Shown here one piece after another: positions 10,930 to 58,869 of a stretch of 64,000 nucleotides of DNA; positions within the stretch are counted from its first letter, which is position 1, and each line of letters starts with the position of its first letter. Both the position numbers and the translations under genes were made by a program. The notes under the pieces were generated by a model. It had not been told where the DNA came from. It made no database searches and was given only the letters and a program-made list of their open reading frames with translations. Origin of the DNA: Curtobacterium herbarum. GTDB lineage: Bacteria > Actinomycetota > Actinomycetes > Actinomycetales > Microbacteriaceae. The DNA is taken from NCBI RefSeq assembly GCF_016907335.1, contig NZ_JAFBBT010000001.1:3410001-3474000 (forward strand), in the 5' to 3' direction.

Positions 10930-11905
10930 CAGCGGGGGCGTGCACGACCTCGAGCACCTCGGTGCCCATCGTGCGGAGTGCGTCGACGACCGCCAACCGC
11001 CGCTGCAGTGAGTCGTCCTCGAACCGGACGGTGACGGCGTAGCAGACCGACGACGCCGGCCCCCGGAGCACGCCCGCCTCGGCCCGGATGCCCGGCCCGG
11101 AGCCCGTGACCGCGACGGACTGGAGGCCGTGGTCGAGTGCCCGGTGCGCCAGCGGATCGAGACCGAACGACCCGGCGACGAGCGACAGGTCAGCCGCCAA
11201 CGACAGCCACCCGAGCACCCGGTTCGACACCGTCTGGTCCACGACCTCGCCGAGGGCCAACCCACGGAAGAGCCAGCTGAGCTCCCCCGACGCCGCGACC
11301 GAGACGTCCGGGGCGTCGTCCGGGCCGCGGCGGTCCCGCACCCGGTCGATCAGCGCAGACCGCTCGACACCGAGGGACTCGGCACGCGCCCGCACGGCGT
11401 CGATCCCCACCGTGGTGAGCAGCGCGTTCGTCGCCCAGGCGTCCGCGGTCGCACCCACGAGGGTCGCGAGGTCCGGCACCTGCATCGTCGGTTCCTGCAG
11501 GAACTGCCACAACCCGGCACCGGTCGCGGTGTCCCGGGCCATGCGCTGGAGCCGGTCGCCGTGCAGCCGGCCGTCCTCGAGCTGGGCCGCCACCTCGATC
11601 AGGAGCAGCACCCGCCCGAGCCCGGACACGGGTTGCACGAGCCGGTCGTCGATCGCCAGCAGGGCACGGCCCGTCGAGGTGTCGATGATCGAGGCGCTGA
11701 CCCCGGCACCGTCCTGCGCGATGGTGCCGAGTGCCTCCGTCGTGGCGGTGAAGCGCTCGTCCGCCCCACCGCGGTGCTTGCCGCGGCTCCGACCGCCACC
11801 ACCGGCACGACCACCGCCGACGGGGCCGTGCCCCGCTGAGCCGTCGTCAGCGGGGCGTCCGGGGCGGCGCCGGCGCGACGAGTGCGGCGCGTCCGGCTCC
11901 GTCAT
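10922..11905 (-). CDS. class A beta-lactamase-fold protein lacking catalytic residues
   Basis: After a basic, Gly/Arg-rich N-terminus of about 50 residues, the 327-residue protein follows the class A beta-lactamase/serine-hydrolase order. QPVSGLGRVLLLIEV stands where SxxK belongs (Ser 94 kept, Lys replaced by Gly 97). ATADAWATNALLTTVG stands in place of the SDN region, and VTGSGPGIRAEAGVL is where K-T-G is expected (about 266-268, Lys replaced by Val). The scaffold is clear but two of three motifs have lost the key residue, so hydrolysis is unlikely. There is no signal peptide. The ATG at 11905 overlaps the TGA of the peptidase gene upstream, so the two are coupled. Confidence 0.7.
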   Translation of the reverse strand: MTEPDAPHSSRRRRPGRPADDGSAGHGPVGGGRAGGGGRSRGKHRGGADERFTATTEALGTIAQDGAGVSASIIDTSTGRALLAIDDRLVQPVSGLGRVLLLIEVAAQLEDGRLHGDRLQRMARDTATGAGLWQFLQEPTMQVPDLATLVGATADAWATNALLTTVGIDAVRARAESLGVERSALIDRVRDRRGPDDAPDVSVAASGELSWLFRGLALGEVVDQTVSNRVLGWLSLAADLSLVAGSFGLDPLAHRALDHGLQSVAVTGSGPGIRAEAGVLRGPASSVCYAVTVRFEDDSLQRRLAVVDALRTMGTEVLEVVHAPAER

Positions 11906-47705: not shown

Positions 47706-48401
47706 ATGGGCAACGCGTTCTCGACCGGCTGGCGCATCGCCCGCACACGGCGGTCGGAGTTCCTCGACCCGGCCCGGCTCCGACGCCGGACCGTCGTGAC
47801 CGGCACGGTCGCCGTCGTCTCGGGCACTGTCATGGTCGTCGCCGATCTGCTCTGGGGCATCTTCGACGGGCCGTGGCCCCTACGCCTCCTGGCGATCGTC
47901 TGCTTGGCGGCCGCACTCGGGTGCCTGGTCGGAGTGTTCCTCCGGGTCCACCGTCGGGATCTCGACCTCCGAGGCACCGCCGCCGGGACCGGGACCGGCG
48001 ACTGGCGCCGCGATGAGCGCATCGCACGGCAGTTCGCCGCCCGTGCTCCGGCGATGCTCCCGGAGGACCGCGACGAGATCCTGGCCCGGGCCGAGCGCAC
48101 CGTCGGACCGTCCGTCGCCCTCGCGGCCCGGTTCGTCCTGCTGCCGATCACCTGGGCGCTGGTCTGGGCGGGAGCGCTGCTGTCCGGCCTCGGCTCGCTC
48201 GACTCCCCGTTCGTGTTGTTCTGGCCCCCGATGCTCATGCTGCTGCAGTCGGCCACCTTCATCACGGCGGTGACGAACATCGGGCGGTCCGACGCCGCAC
48301 GCCGCCGTGCCCTTGCGCTCGAGCCGGCCCCGGTCGTCGAGGCACCGCCGCGTCGGAACAACGACCCCCGCGGCTCGAAGATCGGTCTCCCCGGCGACTG
48401 A
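47706..48401 (+). CDS. four-helix membrane protein of unknown function
   Basis: This 231-residue protein has two hydrophobic pairs: about 30-52 and 60-80, then, after a hydrophilic domain with DERIARQFAARAPAMLPEDRDEILARAERTVG, about 140-160 and 165-190. The tail is Pro/Arg rich. No family was recognised. A CAGGAT hexamer ends 6 nt before the ATG, which fits a leaderless start. It is the last backbone gene before the accessory island. Confidence 0.7.
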   Translation: MGNAFSTGWRIARTRRSEFLDPARLRRRTVVTGTVAVVSGTVMVVADLLWGIFDGPWPLRLLAIVCLAAALGCLVGVFLRVHRRDLDLRGTAAGTGTGDWRRDERIARQFAARAPAMLPEDRDEILARAERTVGPSVALAARFVLLPITWALVWAGALLSGLGSLDSPFVLFWPPMLMLLQSATFITAVTNIGRSDAARRRALALEPAPVVEAPPRRNNDPRGSKIGLPGD

Positions 48402-48407
48402 CCCCGG

Positions 48408-48588
48408 TTGCGGCAGGCAAGAAGTGGGAGTCAGATCCGACGTGGGCAGGTGTTCGCGTGGGGCATGCCTTCGATCACCTTCGTCCTCATCGCTGGCCAC
48501 TTGCTGGCGTGCGTCCTGGCGTACATGCACACCGCTCCGATCAATGCTGCGCACCGGGCCACCGACGAGAGTGGCCGCGGGTTTTCTC
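48408..48588 (+). pseudogene. truncated paralog of the membrane-protein gene at 61.4 kb
   Basis: Codons 48447-48582 read QVFAWGMPSITFVLIAGHLL then ACVLAYMHTAPINAAHRATDESGRG. This aligns closely with the N-terminal half of the intact reverse-strand gene at 61419-61808 (QVMAWVVPSIALALMAG, MHTAPIDAAYRATDESGRG), and the nucleotides are also nearly the same. After the shared RG the similarity stops and unrelated, less GC-rich sequence begins. The second half with two membrane helices is missing. I read it as a gene cut by the event that brought in the island. Confidence 0.7.
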
Positions 48589-48780
48589 CCGGGCGCGCGA
48601 CCGGGCGCGACGAACGTCTTCCCGACCACAGCCTTGCGATCTCCGACGCATGTGATCTCCGGCGTCACAATCGATCACGTCAATATGTCTGTCCGTCCGA
48701 CCCGACGTACGTCCATCTCGCCGTACTTCCTCTGTACGTCGATGCCGTCCGTTCGCAATCTGAGGACACTACCAGTTTGG

Positions 48781-48808
48781 TTGAGTGACGAGGCGGTAGA
48801 CCTATAGC
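48781..48808 (+). promoter_or_regulatory. predicted promoter of the lanthipeptide precursor gene
   Basis: TTGAGT (48781-48786) and TATAGC (48803-48808) are spaced by 16 bp, giving a good sigma-70-type promoter whose transcript would start about 48815, some 47 nt before lanA. A purine-rich ribosome-binding region (AAGGGGACAGGA) lies directly before the ATG at 48862. The rest of 48589-48780 shows no gene. Confidence 0.6.
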
Positions 48809-48861
48809 CTGCGCGTGGGGCGGGCATGGGGTCGCCCGACAACTGAAAGAAGGGGACAGGA

Positions 48862-49080
48862 ATGGACGCTGCAACCATTTCCGAAGCATGGCTCTCCGGG
48901 GCCGACATCGAGGACGGGCAATCGCCCAGCCCTGTCGATCGCCTGGAAGAATTCGCGTTCATGCCGAGCGGATGCGTCTTTGAAAGCGCGATTACCGATC
49001 CGAGCGGATGTGATCCAACGACCACTGTCTGTGGCACCGTCGCGCCTTGCGTCGGCACGCAGAGAGTGTGCGGGTGCTGA
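48862..49080 (+). CDS. lanA: class II lanthipeptide precursor peptide
   Basis: This 72-residue peptide has an acidic, Cys-free leader (residues 1-37, including SGADIEDG and VDRLEEFAF) and a C-terminal core containing six Cys (38, 50, 57, 63, 70, 72) and eight Ser/Thr (42, 45, 48, 53, 54, 55, 59, 66). The core begins CVFESAITDPSGC, continues DPTTTVCGTVAPC and ends VGTQRVCGC. It lies directly before a LanM gene, which reads from a frame overlapping its end. Every Cys could in principle pair with a dehydrated Ser/Thr. The leader lacks a Gly-Gly cleavage site. PSG before Cys38 is the likely leader/core junction. I know no described lanthipeptide with this core. Confidence 0.85.
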   Translation: MDAATISEAWLSGADIEDGQSPSPVDRLEEFAFMPSGCVFESAITDPSGCDPTTTVCGTVAPCVGTQRVCGC

Positions 49081-49142
49081 CCGGCAAGCCATCGAGTCAC
49101 TCGCAGCAGACCACTGATTCCGGGTGGCGTGTCCGTTCGCGG

Positions 49143-52001
49143 ATGACGCCACCCGGAATATTCGTCGATGCAGACCCCGTGGTGGACCATGAGACTGCAT
49201 CTGGTCTTTACGAGGATTGCTACCGTCTCGCGAAACACTTCGCTGGCGAACTACTGGACCGCGGAGCGGGGAGTACGCCCTTGCTCGTTGAAGGCGTGCT
49301 GGCGACCGTAGGCGAAGAACTCGCGTCAGGGATCGCACAAACGATTTGCGTCGAGATCAACATCGCACGGATCGCCGGCGTGCTCGTCGGTGACTCGGCA
49401 CAGAAGCGGTACCGCTCCTACTTCGAGGGCGCAGTGCTGCCGGAATACCGGAAGTATCTGTATTCCAAGTACCCCGTGCTGCACGAGCGCATCACGGCTG
49501 TCACATCCGCTACGGCGGCGCTTTTCGAGCGGATCGTGGCAGCGGCTGAGGCTGACGCGGCCGGATTGTCGGAAATGTTCGGCACGGACATCGTGCCCGA
49601 GGTGAGCCATATCACCCCGCTCGGCGATCCTCATGACGGTGGAGCACGGGCGTGCCGTGTCCGATTCTCGGACGGGCACGTGGCGATGTACAAGCCGCGG
49701 TCTGCGGCACCTGAACTCTTCATGACCCGCTTGACCAGTCTACTCAGTGCAGGCGTCCAGGATTTGGTCAGAGTGGCTACCGTTCTCGATCGCGGGACCT
49801 ACCACTGGTCCCCTTGGCTCGAAGCAGACAAGAACACTGGCTTTGGGCGCGCGCACTACACAGCGGCTGGTGCGTGGATCGCATTCGCGTACTTCACGGC
49901 CACGCGGGACCTCCACCGGGAGAACCTTTTGCCCTATCAAGGCTGTCTGGTAGGGATTGACCTCGAGTGCATCCTCAACTCGGTTCCCGCGAACAACCCG
50001 GGTGACAACAGCCTTCGAACGAACCAGCTCAGTTCTGTACTCACGACAGGAATTCTTCCGCAGCGTATCGCTTCGAATGCTGACGTAGAAGGGGTGAATA
50101 TCGGCGCAATCGGCGCGATCGACGGCGACGTCTCAGGGTTGTTCAGCATGGTGGTCACGGATGACTGCACTGACGTCGTTCGAGTCGGCCGTCGGGAGGG
50201 CGTTACTCAGGACCAGCGGACCGCCGATGTAGCGAGCGGCGTTGCCGCTAACCTGGACGCCGTGCTCGACGGGTTCGAACGTTGCTCAGCCGACCTTCGG
50301 GCGAATCTACCTGAGCTTGTATCGGCGATGTATGAGTACGACGGCCACACACGCGTGGTCGTTCGCCCGACGCAGGTCTACTTTGAGTCGCAATTCAAGG
50401 CCACTCATCCACGATGCCTCGTGGACTCGGGACTGGCTCGTCAGACTCTCGGCGATCAGCTTCACGTTGTGGCACCGTACGGCGATGACGCTTTCCTCCA
50501 GAGGGAAGTCGACGCGCTCTACCGTATGCAGATCCCGGCTTACTACTGCGATCCACGCGACCACTCCCTCCCCGGGCCGGTCGGAGACATCCCACTCGCC
50601 TCAGGGCTCGCGACCGCACTTGAGCGCACCGCTGAGCTTCGGGACTGGAACGCAAACAGTCACCGTCACCGTGATGCTATTGCCAAGTGCATCGCAGCAT
50701 TTGGATCCGCGGCGCAGACCGAAGTCGGGCGTTACATTGACCTGCACGAACTCCTGCGCGACGAAGACGTGGATCACAGCGCGACCCTTCGTCTCCTTGA
50801 TGATGTCTTCGGCGAGATCCGAGAGTCGCGAGCTGCCGTAGCGCCGAGCGCTTGGATGAACGTGGGCCGTGCCATGAACAACAGGTGGTCGGTGGCATTG
50901 TCTGACCACGGCCTGTACGGCGGAGTGGCGGGCGTCTACCTCGCTGCCGCCGTTCATGGAGCAGGCAGCGGCTCTCCGCAGGCACTCAAGCTCGCTGCGG
51001 ATCTACAGGCCGACATCATCGCTGTATGCACGGAAGACAAGGTCGCTTCAGTCGACTCGGGAGCTTTCGGCGGCATCGCGGGGATCGCTTTCGCTATCGG
51101 TGCCGGTATTCAACTCGGGCTCATGACTGAGACAGTTGGACGAAGTGCGATCAACCGCATTGCATCGATGTGCCTCGACAAACTGAGCACGGATGTCGAA
51201 CCAGACGTCATCGGCGGCGCTGCCGGGTGCCTCCTCGTTTTCTCGGAGCTCCTCCGGGTGGGCCTCGTGTCACGTGAGCTGGGAGTCGTCGTTTGTGATG
51301 CCAGCGTGGAGGAACTACTCCGGAGGTCCCGTCGCGACGAGGGCACCGAAGGACTCGTCTGGGACAACGAGTGGGCCAAGACTTGGCTCGGAGGAGCCAG
51401 CCACGGCGTGGCTGGCGTGGAATGGGCTGCTGCGCGGTACTTGTCGGTCGCGAAGACCGCTGAGCGGAAGGCCCACGCCTCTCAGCTCTTCGTCGGCGCG
51501 AAGCGAAGCCAAGACGCGCTGTGGGACTCGGCCAAACAGCATTGGTCCGACCGCCGATCGGCCGCCGTCGCCGGCGACCCCCCGATGCAAGCATGGTGCC
51601 ATGGAGCGGAAGGCATCGTCCTCGCCCGTTTCGATTACGGCGCATTCGATTCAGAGTCACGCCGAATCGACGCGCTGCGCTTCGTCGCAGACCTGCCGGT
51701 GGTCACGAACACGAGCTTGTGCCACGGGATGGCTGGCCGGATGACTGCTCTAAACGTTCTACTCGCGGGCGTCGGTGAACAACACTCTGAGTCGGTTTAC
51801 CCAGCGAGTCTCTCGGACGGGATGTTGGCAGCGCTTGTTGCAACGCTGAGCGGACGACGCGCAGTTGATGCAACCAACCTCGAGCTTTGGAATGAGGGAC
51901 TGATGACCGGACGATCTGGTATTGCTCTGGCGATATCGCAGCGAATCGTGGGTACGAGCGACCTCAGCCCCCTCCTACTACGGCTGGGAACGAGACCGTG
52001 A
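49143..52001 (+). CDS. lanM: class II lanthionine synthetase LanM
   Basis: This bifunctional enzyme dehydrates Ser/Thr in the precursor core and then adds Cys thiols to form (methyl)lanthionine rings. It has 952 residues from the ATG at 49143. In-frame GTG starts at 49068 and 49074 overlap lanA and would extend it, so the start is uncertain. The dehydratase half has MYKPRS (about 182), DLHREN (about 256-261) and DLE (about 273-275), the ATP and catalytic residues of the LanM kinase-like fold. The LanC-like half has GGASHGVAG (His about 754), AWCHGAEG (Cys about 819) and SLCHGMAG (Cys-His about 860-861), the zinc site. All key motifs are intact. Codon use is much poorer in GC than the neighbours'. 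Confidence 0.93.
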   Translation: MTPPGIFVDADPVVDHETASGLYEDCYRLAKHFAGELLDRGAGSTPLLVEGVLATVGEELASGIAQTICVEINIARIAGVLVGDSAQKRYRSYFEGAVLPEYRKYLYSKYPVLHERITAVTSATAALFERIVAAAEADAAGLSEMFGTDIVPEVSHITPLGDPHDGGARACRVRFSDGHVAMYKPRSAAPELFMTRLTSLLSAGVQDLVRVATVLDRGTYHWSPWLEADKNTGFGRAHYTAAGAWIAFAYFTATRDLHRENLLPYQGCLVGIDLECILNSVPANNPGDNSLRTNQLSSVLTTGILPQRIASNADVEGVNIGAIGAIDGDVSGLFSMVVTDDCTDVVRVGRREGVTQDQRTADVASGVAANLDAVLDGFERCSADLRANLPELVSAMYEYDGHTRVVVRPTQVYFESQFKATHPRCLVDSGLARQTLGDQLHVVAPYGDDAFLQREVDALYRMQIPAYYCDPRDHSLPGPVGDIPLASGLATALERTAELRDWNANSHRHRDAIAKCIAAFGSAAQTEVGRYIDLHELLRDEDVDHSATLRLLDDVFGEIRESRAAVAPSAWMNVGRAMNNRWSVALSDHGLYGGVAGVYLAAAVHGAGSGSPQALKLAADLQADIIAVCTEDKVASVDSGAFGGIAGIAFAIGAGIQLGLMTETVGRSAINRIASMCLDKLSTDVEPDVIGGAAGCLLVFSELLRVGLVSRELGVVVCDASVEELLRRSRRDEGTEGLVWDNEWAKTWLGGASHGVAGVEWAAARYLSVAKTAERKAHASQLFVGAKRSQDALWDSAKQHWSDRRSAAVAGDPPMQAWCHGAEGIVLARFDYGAFDSESRRIDALRFVADLPVVTNTSLCHGMAGRMTALNVLLAGVGEQHSESVYPASLSDGMLAALVATLSGRRAVDATNLELWNEGLMTGRSGIALAISQRIVGTSDLSPLLLRLGTRP

Positions 52002-52335
52002 CGTTTGCCTGTGTCGAGTTGGCTCGGTGTAGTTGCTCACTGCGGTCGTCCGGGTGGTACCCAAGCCGCTCCCGCACCCTGCATGCACAAGAACGGGGTG
52101 CCCGTACCGGACATCCGGCGCACCGTTTGGATCCCGCGACCGCTCCTGCCGAATCTGTCGCTCTCACCGTCGATCGATTCCATTGTGACTCGTGTGCATC
52201 AGCACGGTGAGACCCTCACTGACCCGCGCCTGGTCGAGCAGGTAGAGGAGCAACAGGCCCTGACACAGCGGGAGGGGGCGGCCTCTGACCAGCGAGCAGT
52301 CAGACGGCGACCTTTCGATTCGGAAAGGAGAACTG
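52002..52335 (+). other. gap between lanM and the hydrolase gene
   Basis: No convincing gene. A 70-codon ORF (51998-52210) starts at a GTG overlapping the lanM stop, but its Arg/Ser/Ala-rich product resembles nothing. A second ORF from 52083 shares its frame with the hydrolase flank only by chance. No inverted repeat was noticed. The strong ribosome-binding site GGAAAGGAG at 52322-52330 serves the hydrolase. Confidence 0.5.
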
Positions 52336-53088
52336 TTGAAGTACACCTACACGTCGAGCGCGTGCGCGCAGTATCCGACGACTCGTGCTTGTCAACATCG
52401 CGGCCCGCACACTCAAGATGCACCCTTGGCAGCCGAAGATGAGCATGCAAGCGGTCCGCCACCTACGCCCTTCGACGAAGGCTACGAGACCGACGCAGGA
52501 ATAGCATACGTGTCGAACTACCGGGCCGAGCGCCCTAGGGCGATCTTGGTAGCCACTCATGGCGCTGCGACAACGATTCGTTCACCAGACCTGCAACTCC
52601 TGTGCCACCTGCTATTGCGCAATCAAGTTTCGGTAGCACTGATCACACAGCCTGCCCGTTTTCGTTCCGATGTAGCTGCCCGTAATCGGGAAAGCGATCG
52701 GGCGTGGCACCAAGTCGTCAACTATGCCCGACGGGATCACGACCGTGTGATCGTCGGCGGGCGCAGCGCCGGGTCACGTGTGGCGATCCGCAATGCCTCC
52801 TCCGTTGGGGCTATCGGAGCAATCTTGATGTCGTACCCGTTAGTCTCGGCACGCAGCGCGCAGGAGTTGTACGGTGCCACTACACCACGCCTCGTATTTC
52901 AAGGCGAACTCGACGATGAGTCTCCGCCGCAAGGGTTTCGCCCCGCGAGAAATATGAGCGTGACGCCCGTTCCTGGAATGGGCCACCTGATGGATTCACC
53001 GCGAGCATGTTCATCACTGCAGCGGGAACTGTCAGCAATCGTCCCGCCGTGGCTGAATGAAGTTCTGGTTCAGCCGAAGAGCCCATAG
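52336..53088 (+). CDS. alpha/beta hydrolase, Tex30/KANL3-like
   Basis: This 250-residue protein has the nucleophile elbow RVIVGGRSAGSRVAIRNAS (Ser about 144), a possible acid in VFQGELDDESPP and the His in VPGMGHLMDS, so the triad looks complete. The GGRSAGSRVA wording fits the Tex30/KANL3-like hydrolase family. The first 45 residues are Ser/Thr/Pro rich and not conserved. The TTG start at 52336 is chosen for its strong ribosome-binding site 5 nt upstream. It lies in the lanthipeptide locus, same strand and same low-GC codon use. It could process or modify the peptide, or protect the host, but this is inference. Confidence 0.75.
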   Translation: MKYTYTSSACAQYPTTRACQHRGPHTQDAPLAAEDEHASGPPPTPFDEGYETDAGIAYVSNYRAERPRAILVATHGAATTIRSPDLQLLCHLLLRNQVSVALITQPARFRSDVAARNRESDRAWHQVVNYARRDHDRVIVGGRSAGSRVAIRNASSVGAIGAILMSYPLVSARSAQELYGATTPRLVFQGELDDESPPQGFRPARNMSVTPVPGMGHLMDSPRACSSLQRELSAIVPPWLNEVLVQPKSP

Positions 53089-53594
53089 AGCTGCCTGATC
53101 TGCACGGATTCTTCACTCAATCGGCAATGAGTGGAACTCAGCCTTCCAGATCTCACGGACTGCAGGTTCAACACGTCTTGCACCGTGTAGAAAGCGTTGC
53201 ACGAGATCCCTCCAAAAGCATCGCTGCGCACAGCCCAATTCCCTCCAGATGGCAAAACAAACGAGTTAACCGTATCTGACGGTGGCGAGACAAAGGCTGG
53301 ACTGTTTCGAAGGTGGCGGCAGAACAGTCTCGGGACGACGGGATCCTCGCCATGTCCTGTAACCAGGGCGCCTACTGCCGACATCTGCCCTCGCAACGAC
53401 CGGTCCAGAGGCATACAGCTTCAACCACGTCACAATCTCACCGTACGAAACTCAGAACATTTCTGAGCGGCTTCACATGTGACTGTTTGAGGGCCACGCT
53501 TGACGAATGGCGTGTGCTTGCGGTTGAGTAATCTCATGTCGCCAAGGGGATCATGGCACCCGACGCAACGCGCGTCGCACAATCGGGCGCGGGT
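53089..53594. other. AT-richer gap between hydrolase and flavin monooxygenase genes
   Basis: About 500 bp without a convincing gene. The reverse-strand ORF 53070-53414 (114 codons) contains SDAFGGISCNAFYTVQDV but has no recognisable family and no ribosome-binding site, and it may be a decayed fragment. The segment 53460-53550 probably holds a promoter for the downstream monooxygenase. AAGGGGA at 53544-53550 precedes an ATG at 53553, 14 codons upstream of the chosen start. Confidence 0.5.
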
Positions 53595-54617
53595 ATGAGT
53601 AACAGCATTCGCCTGAGCGTTCTGGACCTAGGGACTATTCCGCACGGGTCCACGCCGAAAGTCGGTCTCCGAGAAATGATTCGTGCCGCGCAAAGCGCCG
53701 AGGTCTTGGGCTACGAGCGCTACTGGGTAGCTGAGCATCACGCGACGAATACCTGCTCGAGTGCGGTTCCGATCGCTATGTCTGCCGTCGCATCTGCTAC
53801 TTCGCGGATTCGCGTTGGCAGTGGAGCACTGCTTCTATTGAATCATTCGCCTTATGTTGTGGCGGAACAGTTTGGTACCCTTTCCGCGTTATACAGCGCA
53901 CGGATAGACCTCGGCCTCGGTCGATCCGTCGGTGCCGGCCCAGTTGCTTCGTTGGTAGTGCGCGACAGTACTCAGCCGGTGCAATTTGGCGACTTCGATC
54001 GTCGTCTGGACGACCTGATTGGGCACTTCGACGGAACCTTCCGTCGCGATGGGCATTTGGTTCCTGCTTTGCCCGGCGTGAACGACCAGCCTGAGATATG
54101 GCTACTTGGATCGAGCGTTTCTGCCGCAGAAAATGCCGGGAGTAGGGGTCTGCGATACGCTCACGCCCATCACTTCGATGGTGCGTCGAGTGGCGAGGCA
54201 CTTGATGCCTACCGCGTCAGCTTCCGTCCCAGTGCTGCGCTGGCGAAGCCCTATTGCGCCGTGTCGGCGGTCGCCGCCGTTGGCGACACTGACCGAGAGG
54301 CTTTACGCATTGCTCGGCCCCACTTCGTAACCCGGGTGTACGCGTCACGTGGTCGGCCTGGAATCACGCCAGACGACTCAGCGGCTGCTGAATTCCAGTT
54401 TTCCTCAACAGACGTATCAGACCTCGCAGAGTTTGCGGATCGGCAGATGATTTGCCGTCGGGAGCATGTTGCTCAGCGGATTCTACGGCTTCAAGCGCAA
54501 TTTGGCATGGATGAACTCATCGTTCTTCCGATTGCGACTTCAACCCACCAGAGGATTGACACGCTGCGTGCTGTCGCACAAAGCAACAACGATCTCAAAG
54601 ACTCGTTGACAACCTAG
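53595..54617 (+). CDS. luciferase-like flavin monooxygenase (MsnO8 type)
   Basis: This 340-residue FMN-dependent monooxygenase of the LLM class has LSVLDLGTIPHGSTPKVGLRE at the start, YERYWVAEHHATNTCSSAVP, RIRVGSGALLLLNHSPYVVAEQFG and ARIDLGLGRSVGAGP, the hallmarks of the MsnO8/Atu3640 branch. In the actinobacterial lanthipeptide actagardine the luciferase-like GarO oxidises a lanthionine sulfur to the sulfoxide, so this enzyme is a good candidate for a similar step. ATG at 53595 matches the family N-terminus. An ATG at 53553 would add 14 residues. It is followed after 14 bp by the dioxygenase gene. It is distinctly less GC rich than the backbone. Confidence 0.85.
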   Translation: MSNSIRLSVLDLGTIPHGSTPKVGLREMIRAAQSAEVLGYERYWVAEHHATNTCSSAVPIAMSAVASATSRIRVGSGALLLLNHSPYVVAEQFGTLSALYSARIDLGLGRSVGAGPVASLVVRDSTQPVQFGDFDRRLDDLIGHFDGTFRRDGHLVPALPGVNDQPEIWLLGSSVSAAENAGSRGLRYAHAHHFDGASSGEALDAYRVSFRPSAALAKPYCAVSAVAAVGDTDREALRIARPHFVTRVYASRGRPGITPDDSAAAEFQFSSTDVSDLAEFADRQMICRREHVAQRILRLQAQFGMDELIVLPIATSTHQRIDTLRAVAQSNNDLKDSLTT

Positions 54618-54631
54618 AAGGGGCCGATCCA

Positions 54632-55399
54632 TTGGACAACTCTGAGCTTCTCATCGGTATGCAAAGGACGGGGTATGCTACCTGTTCGGTAGAATCAGCG
54701 GAAGACTTCTACGAAACGATGCACGAAGTAGCGGCGACGACGAACCTCAAGGCTATTCCGCACCCGCGTCGGCCTAACCAAGAGACGTCTCTCGCGCCAC
54801 AAACTCGGGTGGCGATGGACCCGCACTCCGAGTTAGGTCGCACTCCGTATCGATGCGCCATTGTCGGCTTTTTGGGTGTCCAGCCTTCACAGAGCGGGGG
54901 GGAAACGATCCTCGTCGACACGAGTCTCGGCAGCCCGTGCGGCGACCAGCTTGCGGAGCTGTTGCCGGAAACGCTGCGCTTCCGCGGGCTTATCTCGCAG
55001 GCGGCGCTTCCCGACGGCTTTGACTCCGCCACGTCTCAGGCGACCGCTTACGGGAAAGTCGCCTCGGTGACGCCACGAGACGGCGATGTGCTTGAATTCG
55101 AATACGAGATCCCAACGGTCGTACGATCAGCCATTTCACCGGCCGTTCTCTCGGTCGCAACCTCAGTTGTGGGACCCTACGGCGGTGCGCACGACGCCTC
55201 CTCGGGCTTCCCTATCTCGGAAGAAACCATCGAACGGGCACGACAGATCATGGGTGTCTACAGCGTGAAGCTGCGGCTCGATGCGGGCGATGTGGTCCTC
55301 ATCGATAACTGTCGCACGCTTCATGGGCGCCGAGCCTACGCAGGCGACCGCGTCATCGTGTCGGCATTGCTCAGCCAATTCGGGTCCGCTTTTGGTTGA
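54632..55399 (+). CDS. Fe(II)/2-oxoglutarate-dependent oxygenase (TauD/CAS-like)
   Basis: This 255-residue non-heme iron oxygenase has the facial triad in DPHSELGRTPYR (His about 65, Glu about 67) and DNCRTLHGRRAY (distal His about 231), with the 2-oxoglutarate-binding Arg in AGDRVIVSAL (about 240). GGETILVDTSLG is typical of the TauD/clavaminate-synthase-like fold. It could hydroxylate an Asp, Pro or other residue of the lanthipeptide. CinX, which hydroxylates Asp in cinnamycin, is a functional precedent from another oxygenase subfamily. The TTG start at 54632 is supported by GAAGGGG 8 nt upstream. It is co-transcribed with the monooxygenase. Confidence 0.85.
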   Translation: MDNSELLIGMQRTGYATCSVESAEDFYETMHEVAATTNLKAIPHPRRPNQETSLAPQTRVAMDPHSELGRTPYRCAIVGFLGVQPSQSGGETILVDTSLGSPCGDQLAELLPETLRFRGLISQAALPDGFDSATSQATAYGKVASVTPRDGDVLEFEYEIPTVVRSAISPAVLSVATSVVGPYGGAHDASSGFPISEETIERARQIMGVYSVKLRLDAGDVVLIDNCRTLHGRRAYAGDRVIVSALLSQFGSAFG

Positions 55400-56262
55400 G
55401 TCGTGATGCATTAGGAGCAGATACGAATGCCGCGACTGTCGCTGCGACGATGAGTACTATCGTAGATCGGACGCTCAGTGCAGGAAACCGTACCGCCACG
55501 GGGTCCAACGCCTATGAGGTGCCGCGACCTGCTTCCCAGGCATTTGTAATCGAGCAGGCGACTGACGCCCCTCCTCCTGAATGCTGGCCGTACGACCGAG
55601 TTCACGATCTGTCGCTACTGAGCTGTCGTCTGAGGGCAAAGCCGTACTTGTGCGCAACCCCTTCTCCGCCATGAGGGCGAGCAACGAGCACAGTTGGGAT
55701 CGGAGCGAAGGCGTAGCTCACGAGCAGAAGTGGCGCCTGTCTCTGGTCGTGAGGACCCAGTGACGCAACCAGTCGATTTCGTCACGGCGGTCCGTTCGGC
55801 TCCTCCGGCCAAAGACCTGAGCGATGGTCTAGAGGTCATGCAACACCAGAGGCCGATCGGCACCCGGGCCCGCATCAACTCGACCGATCAAACCCTCGCC
55901 CGCCCGCCCGCCCGAGGCCGTCGGCGGCACGGATCGGGCCTTCGACTGGAAGGCGTCGGTCAGGCCCTGGCCCGATTGGCGCCCCCTCGTGTCGCGGAGA
56001 CGTGGCGGCTCAGCGCGCCGCCCGAAGATCGTGACGCGCGATGTGACCGGTCGACCGAAGACATCGGTTTGCCGTCGCACGCCGCCGATCCCTCCCGCTC
56101 GCACCGACCCCGGTCGTAGCCGCGCTCCACAGCGGAACGTCCACCCCCGCGGCTCGGCCACCACCCTCCCCAACGCCTGCCACCCGCGCTCCGCGGACCC
56201 TCCCGCCGCGTGCCCCGACCACCCGGTGCCCGTGTGCAGCCGAGCGGGGATTCACTCGGTGC
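55400..56262. other. gene-poor stretch after the lanthipeptide locus
   Basis: About 860 bp with several short ORFs and no recognisable product. The first 350 bp keep the lower GC of the island. From about 55860 the sequence becomes GC rich like the backbone. A fused or decayed gene is possible. The forward ORF 55396-55674 overlaps the oxygenase end and has no ribosome-binding site. No hairpin strong enough to call a terminator was noticed. Confidence 0.5.
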
Positions 56263-57699: not shown

Positions 57700-58869
57700 G
57701 TGACGACCAACTCACCCTCTCAACGGGTCCACCGTTTCGACGTGGTAGCGGCGAACGAGTTACCTGAGATGAACCGTTTGCAGAGATCGTTCTTTTCGAA
57801 GCACTACCGGCCTCAATTCCTTGCGGGCGATGCGATCGACGTTGACGGGCAGTTCGGCTACCCCGTCGTCATGCTGCACGAGCTCCTGGCTGAATGGGAC
57901 GTTGACCCCAAGACGGCGATGGAGGGAGCGGCTCGCATCATCGACGCATACCCGAAGTCCGTGGCCAAAAGCAAAGCACGACAGTGCCTCGCCGACATGC
58001 ACTACCTCCGGGAGGAGTGGGCCGATGCGTTGACGCTGACGTACGGTTTCCGACGGCTCGTTGCCTTCGTCGGCCTCAGCGACGTGCTGCCGCCACGTGC
58101 GGACGCCTGGGAGGTCATGCGGTGGGGATCCTCGAACATCACCAAGGCGGGCTGGCAAAACCTCGACGCGGCGCTTGATGACCTTCAAAGAACGCTCGAC
58201 AGTTTCCACGACGAGCACGGCATCAGCATCATCGGGCATTTTTGGAGGCGACTGCATGCGAACGAAACCACAGAAGCGATAGCGCAGAGCCTTTACGACC
58301 TGATCGGTTCCGACTACTCCGTCGACCAGATCGTTCACCTCATCGAGCACGGCCGGACCGTCGGTTCGTACCCTCTGATCGCGTTCGAGGGCTTTGCAGG
58401 CTACGAGCGTCCCATCCCAGCAACTTGGAACCGCAGTAACCCGTACGCTTTCGAGGGCTTGATCCGAGCGCTCTGCCGGCCCCTGTTCCGCGAATCGGAG
58501 AACCGCGCGCGTGAGGCCGCTGGACTCCCGCGCGTCGGCGAGGGCCTGGTGTCCGAGATACGTCTGCTGCATCAACTACGTGCTGCGTTCCCCGACGAGC
58601 GAATTGACCACCAGGCACGGCCATCGTGGCTTGCACCACAGTCCCTCGACATGGTGCTCCGCGGGCGAAACGTCGCAATCGAGTACCAGGGCGCCCAACA
58701 CTCGCGCCCGGTGGAGTTCTTCGGTGGAACGAAGGCTTTCGAACGGCAGCAGCAGCGTGACGCTACGAAGCGTTGGCTGTGCGCTGCGCACGGGATGACC
58801 CTCCTCGAGGTCCACCCCGACTACCTGCTAGACGACATCATTGGAGCGGTACGCCGCGCTCTCGAGTAG
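57700..58869 (+). CDS. protein with C-terminal VSR/PD-(D/E)xK-like nuclease domain
   Basis: The 389-residue protein's last 110 residues carry SEIRLLHQLRAAFPDERI, LDMVLRGRNVAIEYQGAQHS, PVEFFGGTKAFERQQQRDATKRWLC and TLLEVHPDYLLDDI in outline. This is the Asp-(x10)-Glu-x-Gln-Gly core (Asp about 317, Glu about 328, Gln 330) of VSR-like endonucleases found in homing and mobile elements. The first 270 residues are mostly helical with no family I know. The GTG start has no good ribosome-binding site. It sits alone in the island, so a role as a defence or mobile-element nuclease is possible. Confidence 0.7.
   Translation: MTTNSPSQRVHRFDVVAANELPEMNRLQRSFFSKHYRPQFLAGDAIDVDGQFGYPVVMLHELLAEWDVDPKTAMEGAARIIDAYPKSVAKSKARQCLADMHYLREEWADALTLTYGFRRLVAFVGLSDVLPPRADAWEVMRWGSSNITKAGWQNLDAALDDLQRTLDSFHDEHGISIIGHFWRRLHANETTEAIAQSLYDLIGSDYSVDQIVHLIEHGRTVGSYPLIAFEGFAGYERPIPATWNRSNPYAFEGLIRALCRPLFRESENRAREAAGLPRVGEGLVSEIRLLHQLRAAFPDERIDHQARPSWLAPQSLDMVLRGRNVAIEYQGAQHSRPVEFFGGTKAFERQQQRDATKRWLCAAHGMTLLEVHPDYLLDDIIGAVRRALE

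Follow-up and report, generated by a model that had tools for sequence, protein, structure and literature searches.

A probable horizontally acquired class II lanthipeptide cluster with predicted oxidative tailoring in Curtobacterium herbarum

Results

A 64,000-nucleotide stretch of the Curtobacterium herbarum genome (contig NZ_JAFBBT010000001.1, positions 3,410,001 to 3,474,000; hereafter the window) probably carries a horizontally acquired class II lanthipeptide cluster with oxidative tailoring. Five genes between 48862 and 55399 occur in the order lanA - lanM - alpha/beta hydrolase - luciferase-like flavin monooxygenase (LLM) - tauD. An initial annotation of this DNA had described five genes in one direction, with an intact LanM among them, and all of them are indeed present on the plus strand with uninterrupted frames.

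48862..49080, plus strand: lanA, precursor peptide of 72 aa; open reading frame (ORF) with a ribosome-binding site directly before lanM
49143..52001, plus strand: lanM, class II lanthipeptide synthetase (dehydratase and cyclase); TIGR03897, PF13575, PF05147
52336..53088, plus strand: alpha/beta hydrolase; PF20408; TTG start with ribosome-binding site AAAGGAG
53553..54617, plus strand: MsnO8-family LLM; TIGR03558; PDB 4us5
54632..55399, plus strand: short TauD-type Fe(II)/2-oxoglutarate dioxygenase; TTG start with ribosome-binding site AGAAGGGG

These genes are best read as a class II lanthipeptide cluster, an interpretation that is very probable. LanM contains both a DUF4135 dehydratase domain and a LanC-like cyclase domain (PF13575, PF05147), and ORF 48862-49080 supplies a leader and a core rich in Ser, Thr and Cys next to lanM. 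A plausible ribosome-binding site precedes four of the five starts, with lanM as the exception. Promoter and terminator scans gave chance-level results. The single strand, the uniform GC content at third codon positions (GC3) and the bounded 7.2-kb island point to one five-gene unit. Judged from sequence, the intact LanM with its catalytic residues, the active-site residues of the oxygenases, the gene order and the foreign origin are established. The substrate role of LanA, the reactions of the LLM and TauD enzymes, the part played by the hydrolase, and the removal of the leader, export and activity of the peptide are inferred. The class II lanthipeptide on acquired DNA and the two likely oxygenases as tailoring enzymes are thus kept from the initial annotation, which had given no weight to the lack of export, immunity, regulation and leader protease genes.

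Precursor peptide

LanA has no cysteine in residues 1-37 and six in its last 35 residues. This composition is weak evidence for lanA by itself because a second, unrelated ORF (11599-11814, minus strand) also has a Cys-rich tail, the two being the only such cases among the 255 window ORFs of 40-130 aa. The assignment is carried by the position before lanM, the ribosome-binding site and the codon score, which is the best of the six frames by a narrow margin (0.088 versus 0.060 for the next). No Pfam or NCBIfam model matches LanA at E 0.1.

A GG/GA cut site and a C39-type LanT are frequent, if not universal, in class II systems. LanA lacks a GG/GA site, and its candidate leader ends in PSG. If the leader is cut after Gly37, then Glu30 stands at -8, close to the (E/D-8)(L/M-7) motif that part of PMC7268733 gives for class II, and the core would hold six Cys and eight Ser/Thr. 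An alternative core start at about residues 47-50 would apply if residues 41-45 truly resemble the ES.IT of other leaders, and this core would have five Cys and five or six Ser/Thr. Whichever start is used, the predicted core contains zero to two Ser. The calculated masses of the neutral cores are 3476.485 Da for residues 38-72 (3332.400 Da with eight dehydrations), 2511.068 Da for residues 47-72 (2403.005 Da with six) and 2269.962 Da for residues 50-72 (2179.909 Da with five). No Ser or Thr precedes the first Cys (residue 38) in the core, which makes five conventional rings the likelier number, and the expectation of up to six thioether rings in the initial annotation is rejected except as an upper bound. 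The TxTxEC motif, which the same portion of PMC7268733 ascribes to the lipid II binders mersacidin and actagardine, is absent from the core, where TTTVC occurs with no Glu before the Cys.

The N-terminus of LanA shares I..AW.SGAD.E....SP with an AWRSGAD..SPAGP leader family (L034, L035, L042, L044, L124 and others), whose genes also lie directly before lanM. The LanMs of this family are 24-26% identical to the island LanM in an alignment of ten LanMs (L044 and L124 are outside it). Kinship of LanA to the family is not supported, as its profile score of 3.8 bits falls below several of 5000 LanA shuffles (up to 14.2). In an ungapped test anchored near the N-terminus, 1 of 20000 shuffles scored as high, which is suggestive only, because the family was picked after the likeness had been seen. 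A separate LanA family occurs in one family of genomes (L212, L242-L251, L034), with the leader EEIVSAWRSGADVEGWDSPAGP, short Cys-rich cores ending in CC and at least seven tandem copies in G492.

Lanthipeptide synthetase

LanM scores 364 bits against TIGR03897 (cut-off 304), 182 bits against PF13575 and 93 bits against PF05147. Its start is ambiguous: translation could begin at the ATG at 49143 or at a GTG or TTG further upstream that overlaps the end of lanA. Residues K184, D256, H258, N261, D273, E275, R404, C819, C860 and H861 are invariant in the ten-LanM alignment and align with LicM2 and CylM; we take their catalytic roles to be those known from CylM work.

As far as sequence comparison reaches, neither LanA nor LanM has a close relative. 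LanM is the only LanC-like match found in the host genome. Matches occur in 25 other genomes of a class sample of 393 (best 30% identity) and in one other of 58 relatives (27%), and the best 80 of at least 492 confirmed loci in genome_contigs are 22-28% identical. A single-protein scan of genome_contigs with LanM returned seven stretches, none of them confirmed. In the plasmid collection 74 records match LanM, the best among the matches listed reaching 28.7% over 66%; no close plasmid-borne copy was found there, since none of these matches covers more than 80% of the query. For comparison of neighborhoods we used 92 LanM loci, 12 from whole genomes and the best 80 from genome_contigs, with at least one place represented twice; 11 of these loci are shorter than 12 kb, and some others are cut on one side. 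A genome of the same genus (G020; L002 / L039) holds a different LanM cluster, with a LanM 27% identical to this one and a 69-aa precursor ending SWVPCFFSLEKTDSCCAY.

Predicted tailoring and maturation enzymes

The LLM matches TIGR03558 with 303 bits (cut-off 167), and its best PDB match is 4us5 (MsnO8; E 1.5e-46). The listed models for F420-dependent LLMs give at most 41 bits. Published work describes LLMs as tailoring enzymes of lanthipeptides, with the name LanJC for those that reduce dehydro residues, and flavoproteins are described as oxidizing lanthionine sulfur (both in passages of PMC7268733). The characterized LxmJ depends on F420H2 (according to portions of PMC10373908 and PMC8498797), and no CofD match was found in the host genome. 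Oxidation is the preferred predicted activity over reduction because of the MsnO8-family membership and the missing CofD. The initial annotation had raised a possible sulfoxide; oxidation is favored on these grounds, and the sulfoxide itself is one of two known uses of LLMs in lanthipeptides. Strong LLM homologues occur in three of the 92 LanM loci, directly after LanM in two (L047, L060) and 4 kb away on the opposite strand in the other (L050), and a fourth locus (L111) has a weak homologue about 9 kb away.

The 255-aa TauD-type enzyme begins 14 bp after the LLM gene and matches PF02668 with 52 bits (cut-off 27). Its metal triad and 2-oxoglutarate-binding Arg (H65, E67, H231 and R240) are invariant over nine sequences, and the HxE aligns with the HTE of VioC. 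None of the 92 other LanM loci has a detectable TauD homologue. Distant short homologues sit in two class I FxLD-system clusters (L296, L326), and for this reason a tailoring role is favored. These short TauD genes lie in lanthipeptide-like clusters at 4.8-8.9 kb of L296 and 7.8-14 kb of L326, where the copy looks broken. A 92-aa ORF (55396-55674, plus strand) shares four bases (TTGA) with the tauD stop. It is weakly coding by codon score, has no Pfam match at E 0.1 and could be a sixth gene.

The hydrolase matches PF20408 with 44 bits (cut-off 27), and its GRSAG motif, Asp and His form a predicted catalytic triad. A sequence search of the PDB found no relative at E 0.01, and a single-sequence structure model was unusable (mean pLDDT 33). 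No homologue was found at any of the 92 LanM loci. Since neither a protease of the cluster nor a C39 peptidase was found, the hydrolase is a candidate for maturation, by its position only.

A foreign island at an insertion hotspot

The cluster lies within DNA that is present at this site in C. herbarum and replaced by other DNA, or by almost none, in close relatives.

48582..55788, strand not applicable: species-variable island, bounded by the ends of blastn homology to the nearest relative, G007
48285..48377, plus strand: direct repeat, left copy, in the 3' end of a 231-aa flanking gene; 75% over 93 columns versus the right copy
56065..56156, plus strand: direct repeat, right copy, at the island border; pairs with 48285..48377

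Homology to G007 stops at 48581 on the left and resumes at 55789 on the right, so lanA through tauD fall wholly inside the variable part; the flanking proteins are 97% and 100% identical in this relative. The left homology ends at 48404-48406 in G024 and G034 (blastn). The border repeats are degenerate and pair with E 7e-13, while the one that G024 has at this site extends over 175 bp at 95%. GC3 is 0.58-0.69 in the five island genes versus 0.90-0.94 in the five nearest flanking genes, and GC per kb is 0.57-0.63 across 49-56 kb, in agreement with the low-GC sequence inside a high-GC genome noted in the initial annotation. Three genes further right (57.7-60.3 kb) have a GC3 of 0.75-0.87.

The site is an insertion hotspot with foreign cargo, flanked by a gene of the Gfo/Idh family and one for a GCS2 carboxylate-amine ligase. 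Both flanking proteins are matched in 40 of 40 genus genomes searched. A close GCS2 orthologue (at least 64%) occurs in nine genomes besides the host and lies near the Gfo/Idh gene in seven of them, all of which were examined. The spacing between the two genes is 164-218 bp in G035, G033, G005 and G011, 4.9 kb in G024 and G034, 8.6 kb here and 11.3 kb in G007, and the inserts of G007, G024 and G034 hold genes unrelated to the island cargo. Searches of the seven examined relatives (L205-L211) with the five island proteins gave no credible match (best E 0.09). Because close relatives hold other DNA or almost none at this site, the island is foreign cargo. No integrase was recognized in it, and tRNA-linked integration was rejected, there being no tRNA within the window. 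Outside the island, on lower-GC DNA, a 389-aa ORF (57700-58869, plus strand) matches phage HNH/homing endonucleases (phrog_559, phrog_9084) with its C-terminal part and, weakly, DUF2726.

Comparison with known systems

In actagardine-type class II lantibiotics, as here, an actinobacterium combines LanA and LanM with a luciferase-like enzyme that depends on flavin. There the enzyme is GarO, the LLM S-oxidase of actagardine. The LanA core has CGTV in common with actagardine. Unlike actagardine-type clusters, the island lacks TxTxEC and a transporter or regulator, adds TauD and the hydrolase, and has no close LanA or LanM kin among the sequences searched. The actagardine sulfoxide is mentioned in part of PMC10676316, and a literature search joining actagardine, garO and sulfoxide found no paper. 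Birimositide and other LanJC class II clusters likewise pair LanM with a PF00296 enzyme; birimositide consists of two components, and a reductive role is proposed for its LLM, whereas here one precursor was found in a genome with no CofD match (birimositide as treated in sections of PMC7268733).

The LLM of Amycolatopsis oliviviridis (L047) is the closest found to the island LLM (42% over 269 columns). In L047 and in a Ktedonobacteraceae metagenome-assembled genome (L060), the LLM accompanies LanM as it does here; these loci differ in having no TauD or matching hydrolase nearby, and their LanMs are 24-27% identical to the island LanM. The class I FxLD-system cluster of L296 (G340) encodes a 270-aa short TauD homologue (28% over 193) that adjoins a LanA-like ORF, LanB-like and LanC-like genes and two FxLD-system methyltransferases. 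It differs in having a class I dehydratase in place of LanM, and no LLM homologue was found there.

The initial annotation could recall no described cluster with this gene set. For LanA, LanM and the LLM this does not hold, given the pairs in L047 and L060 and the LLMs in print; for the added TauD it does, within the reach of the searches made. The combination of LanM and LLM is already known, and with the short TauD this cluster is a variant and not simply a copy of a known one. Neither the five-gene combination nor the LanA peptide was met elsewhere within the searches made, and a literature search joining class II lanthipeptide, TauD and luciferase-like enzyme found no paper.

Discussion

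In the proposed pathway, LanM would phosphorylate and dehydrate Ser and Thr toward the C-terminus of LanA, then add Cys thiols to the dehydrated residues and so close as many as five conventional thioether rings. The LLM would most likely oxidize the product, with a thioether sulfur as the first choice, and the TauD enzyme would hydroxylate one residue. The leader may be removed by some protease, perhaps with help from the hydrolase, and the peptide may exit through a host transporter. A fuller version of this pathway is improbable. It combines double oxidation by an FMN-dependent LLM and a lanthipeptide-specific short-TauD branch common to class I FxLD systems with maturation that needs no C39 protease and a hydrolase acting in leader removal.

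Several observations weigh against an oxidatively tailored, functional cluster. No transporter, immunity, regulator or leader protease gene was recognized in the island (Pfam/NCBIfam), so maturation, export and activity are proposals only; LanT is absent from the island, and the host genome has no C39 peptidase (PF03412) match. Gaps of 334 bp between lanM and the hydrolase gene and 464 bp between the latter and the LLM gene contain no recognizable gene. MsnO8-type LLMs are common (E 1e-40 or better in 257 of 394 class genomes, with a second copy in the host), so finding one here does not by itself imply a function in lanthipeptide synthesis. In the LLM tree the island LLM does not fall together with the three LanM-linked LLMs; the four require three changes, 62 of 500 label shuffles do equally well, and long branches meet. 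TauD homologue loci lack lanthipeptide genes in 18 of 19 cases in one set and in six of seven in another, one of those six having only a methyltransferase match.

These points leave room for other readings. The LLM, TauD and hydrolase genes could be unrelated cargo at the same hotspot, leaving lanA-lanM as the entire lanthipeptide unit. The site does gather unrelated genes in relatives, the gaps separate lanM, the hydrolase and the LLM, and hydrolase and TauD homologues are missing from the 92 LanM loci. We nevertheless consider this unlikely, as the genes share one strand and a similar GC3, the LLM and tauD genes are closely spaced, and other lanthipeptide clusters also contain an LLM or a short TauD. 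Alternatively, the cluster may be decaying or incomplete and silent, with lanA and lanM intact through recent arrival and the transporter, protease and immunity genes lost. The unrecognized functions, the missing C39 peptidase, the gaps and the turnover of cargo at the hotspot are all compatible with such a history. It seems improbable given five open frames, conserved active-site residues and plausible ribosome-binding sites at most starts. Furthermore, none of ten extra ORFs matches a Pfam family at E 0.1. Nine of these fall entirely or in part within the island or its gaps, and because the gap ORFs match no family, no transporter remnant is seen.

The same cluster could instead use its LLM as a LanJC-like reductase that converts dehydroalanine to D-Ala, in which case no sulfoxide would form. 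LanJC is a published name for such lanthipeptide LLMs (in the passages of PMC7268733 cited above), and the core contains Ser. We assign this reading a small probability: the F420H2 used by LxmJ contrasts with the missing CofD match, the MsnO8-family score far exceeds those of the F420-dependent models, and the predicted cores offer so few Ser. A horizontally acquired class II cluster with oxidative tailoring thus remains the reading that we favor.

A section of PMC7268733 gives 3708 class II clusters, and one more unmatched precursor is unsurprising because orphan clusters of this class are plentiful. A cluster with no recognizable leader protease or exporter raises the question of how stripped clusters mature their products. 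If the oxygenases act on the peptide, then the double oxidation of a lanthipeptide could be studied in this island as a small and bounded test case, and the association of short TauD enzymes with systems of class I as well as class II would point to a tailoring branch open to mining.

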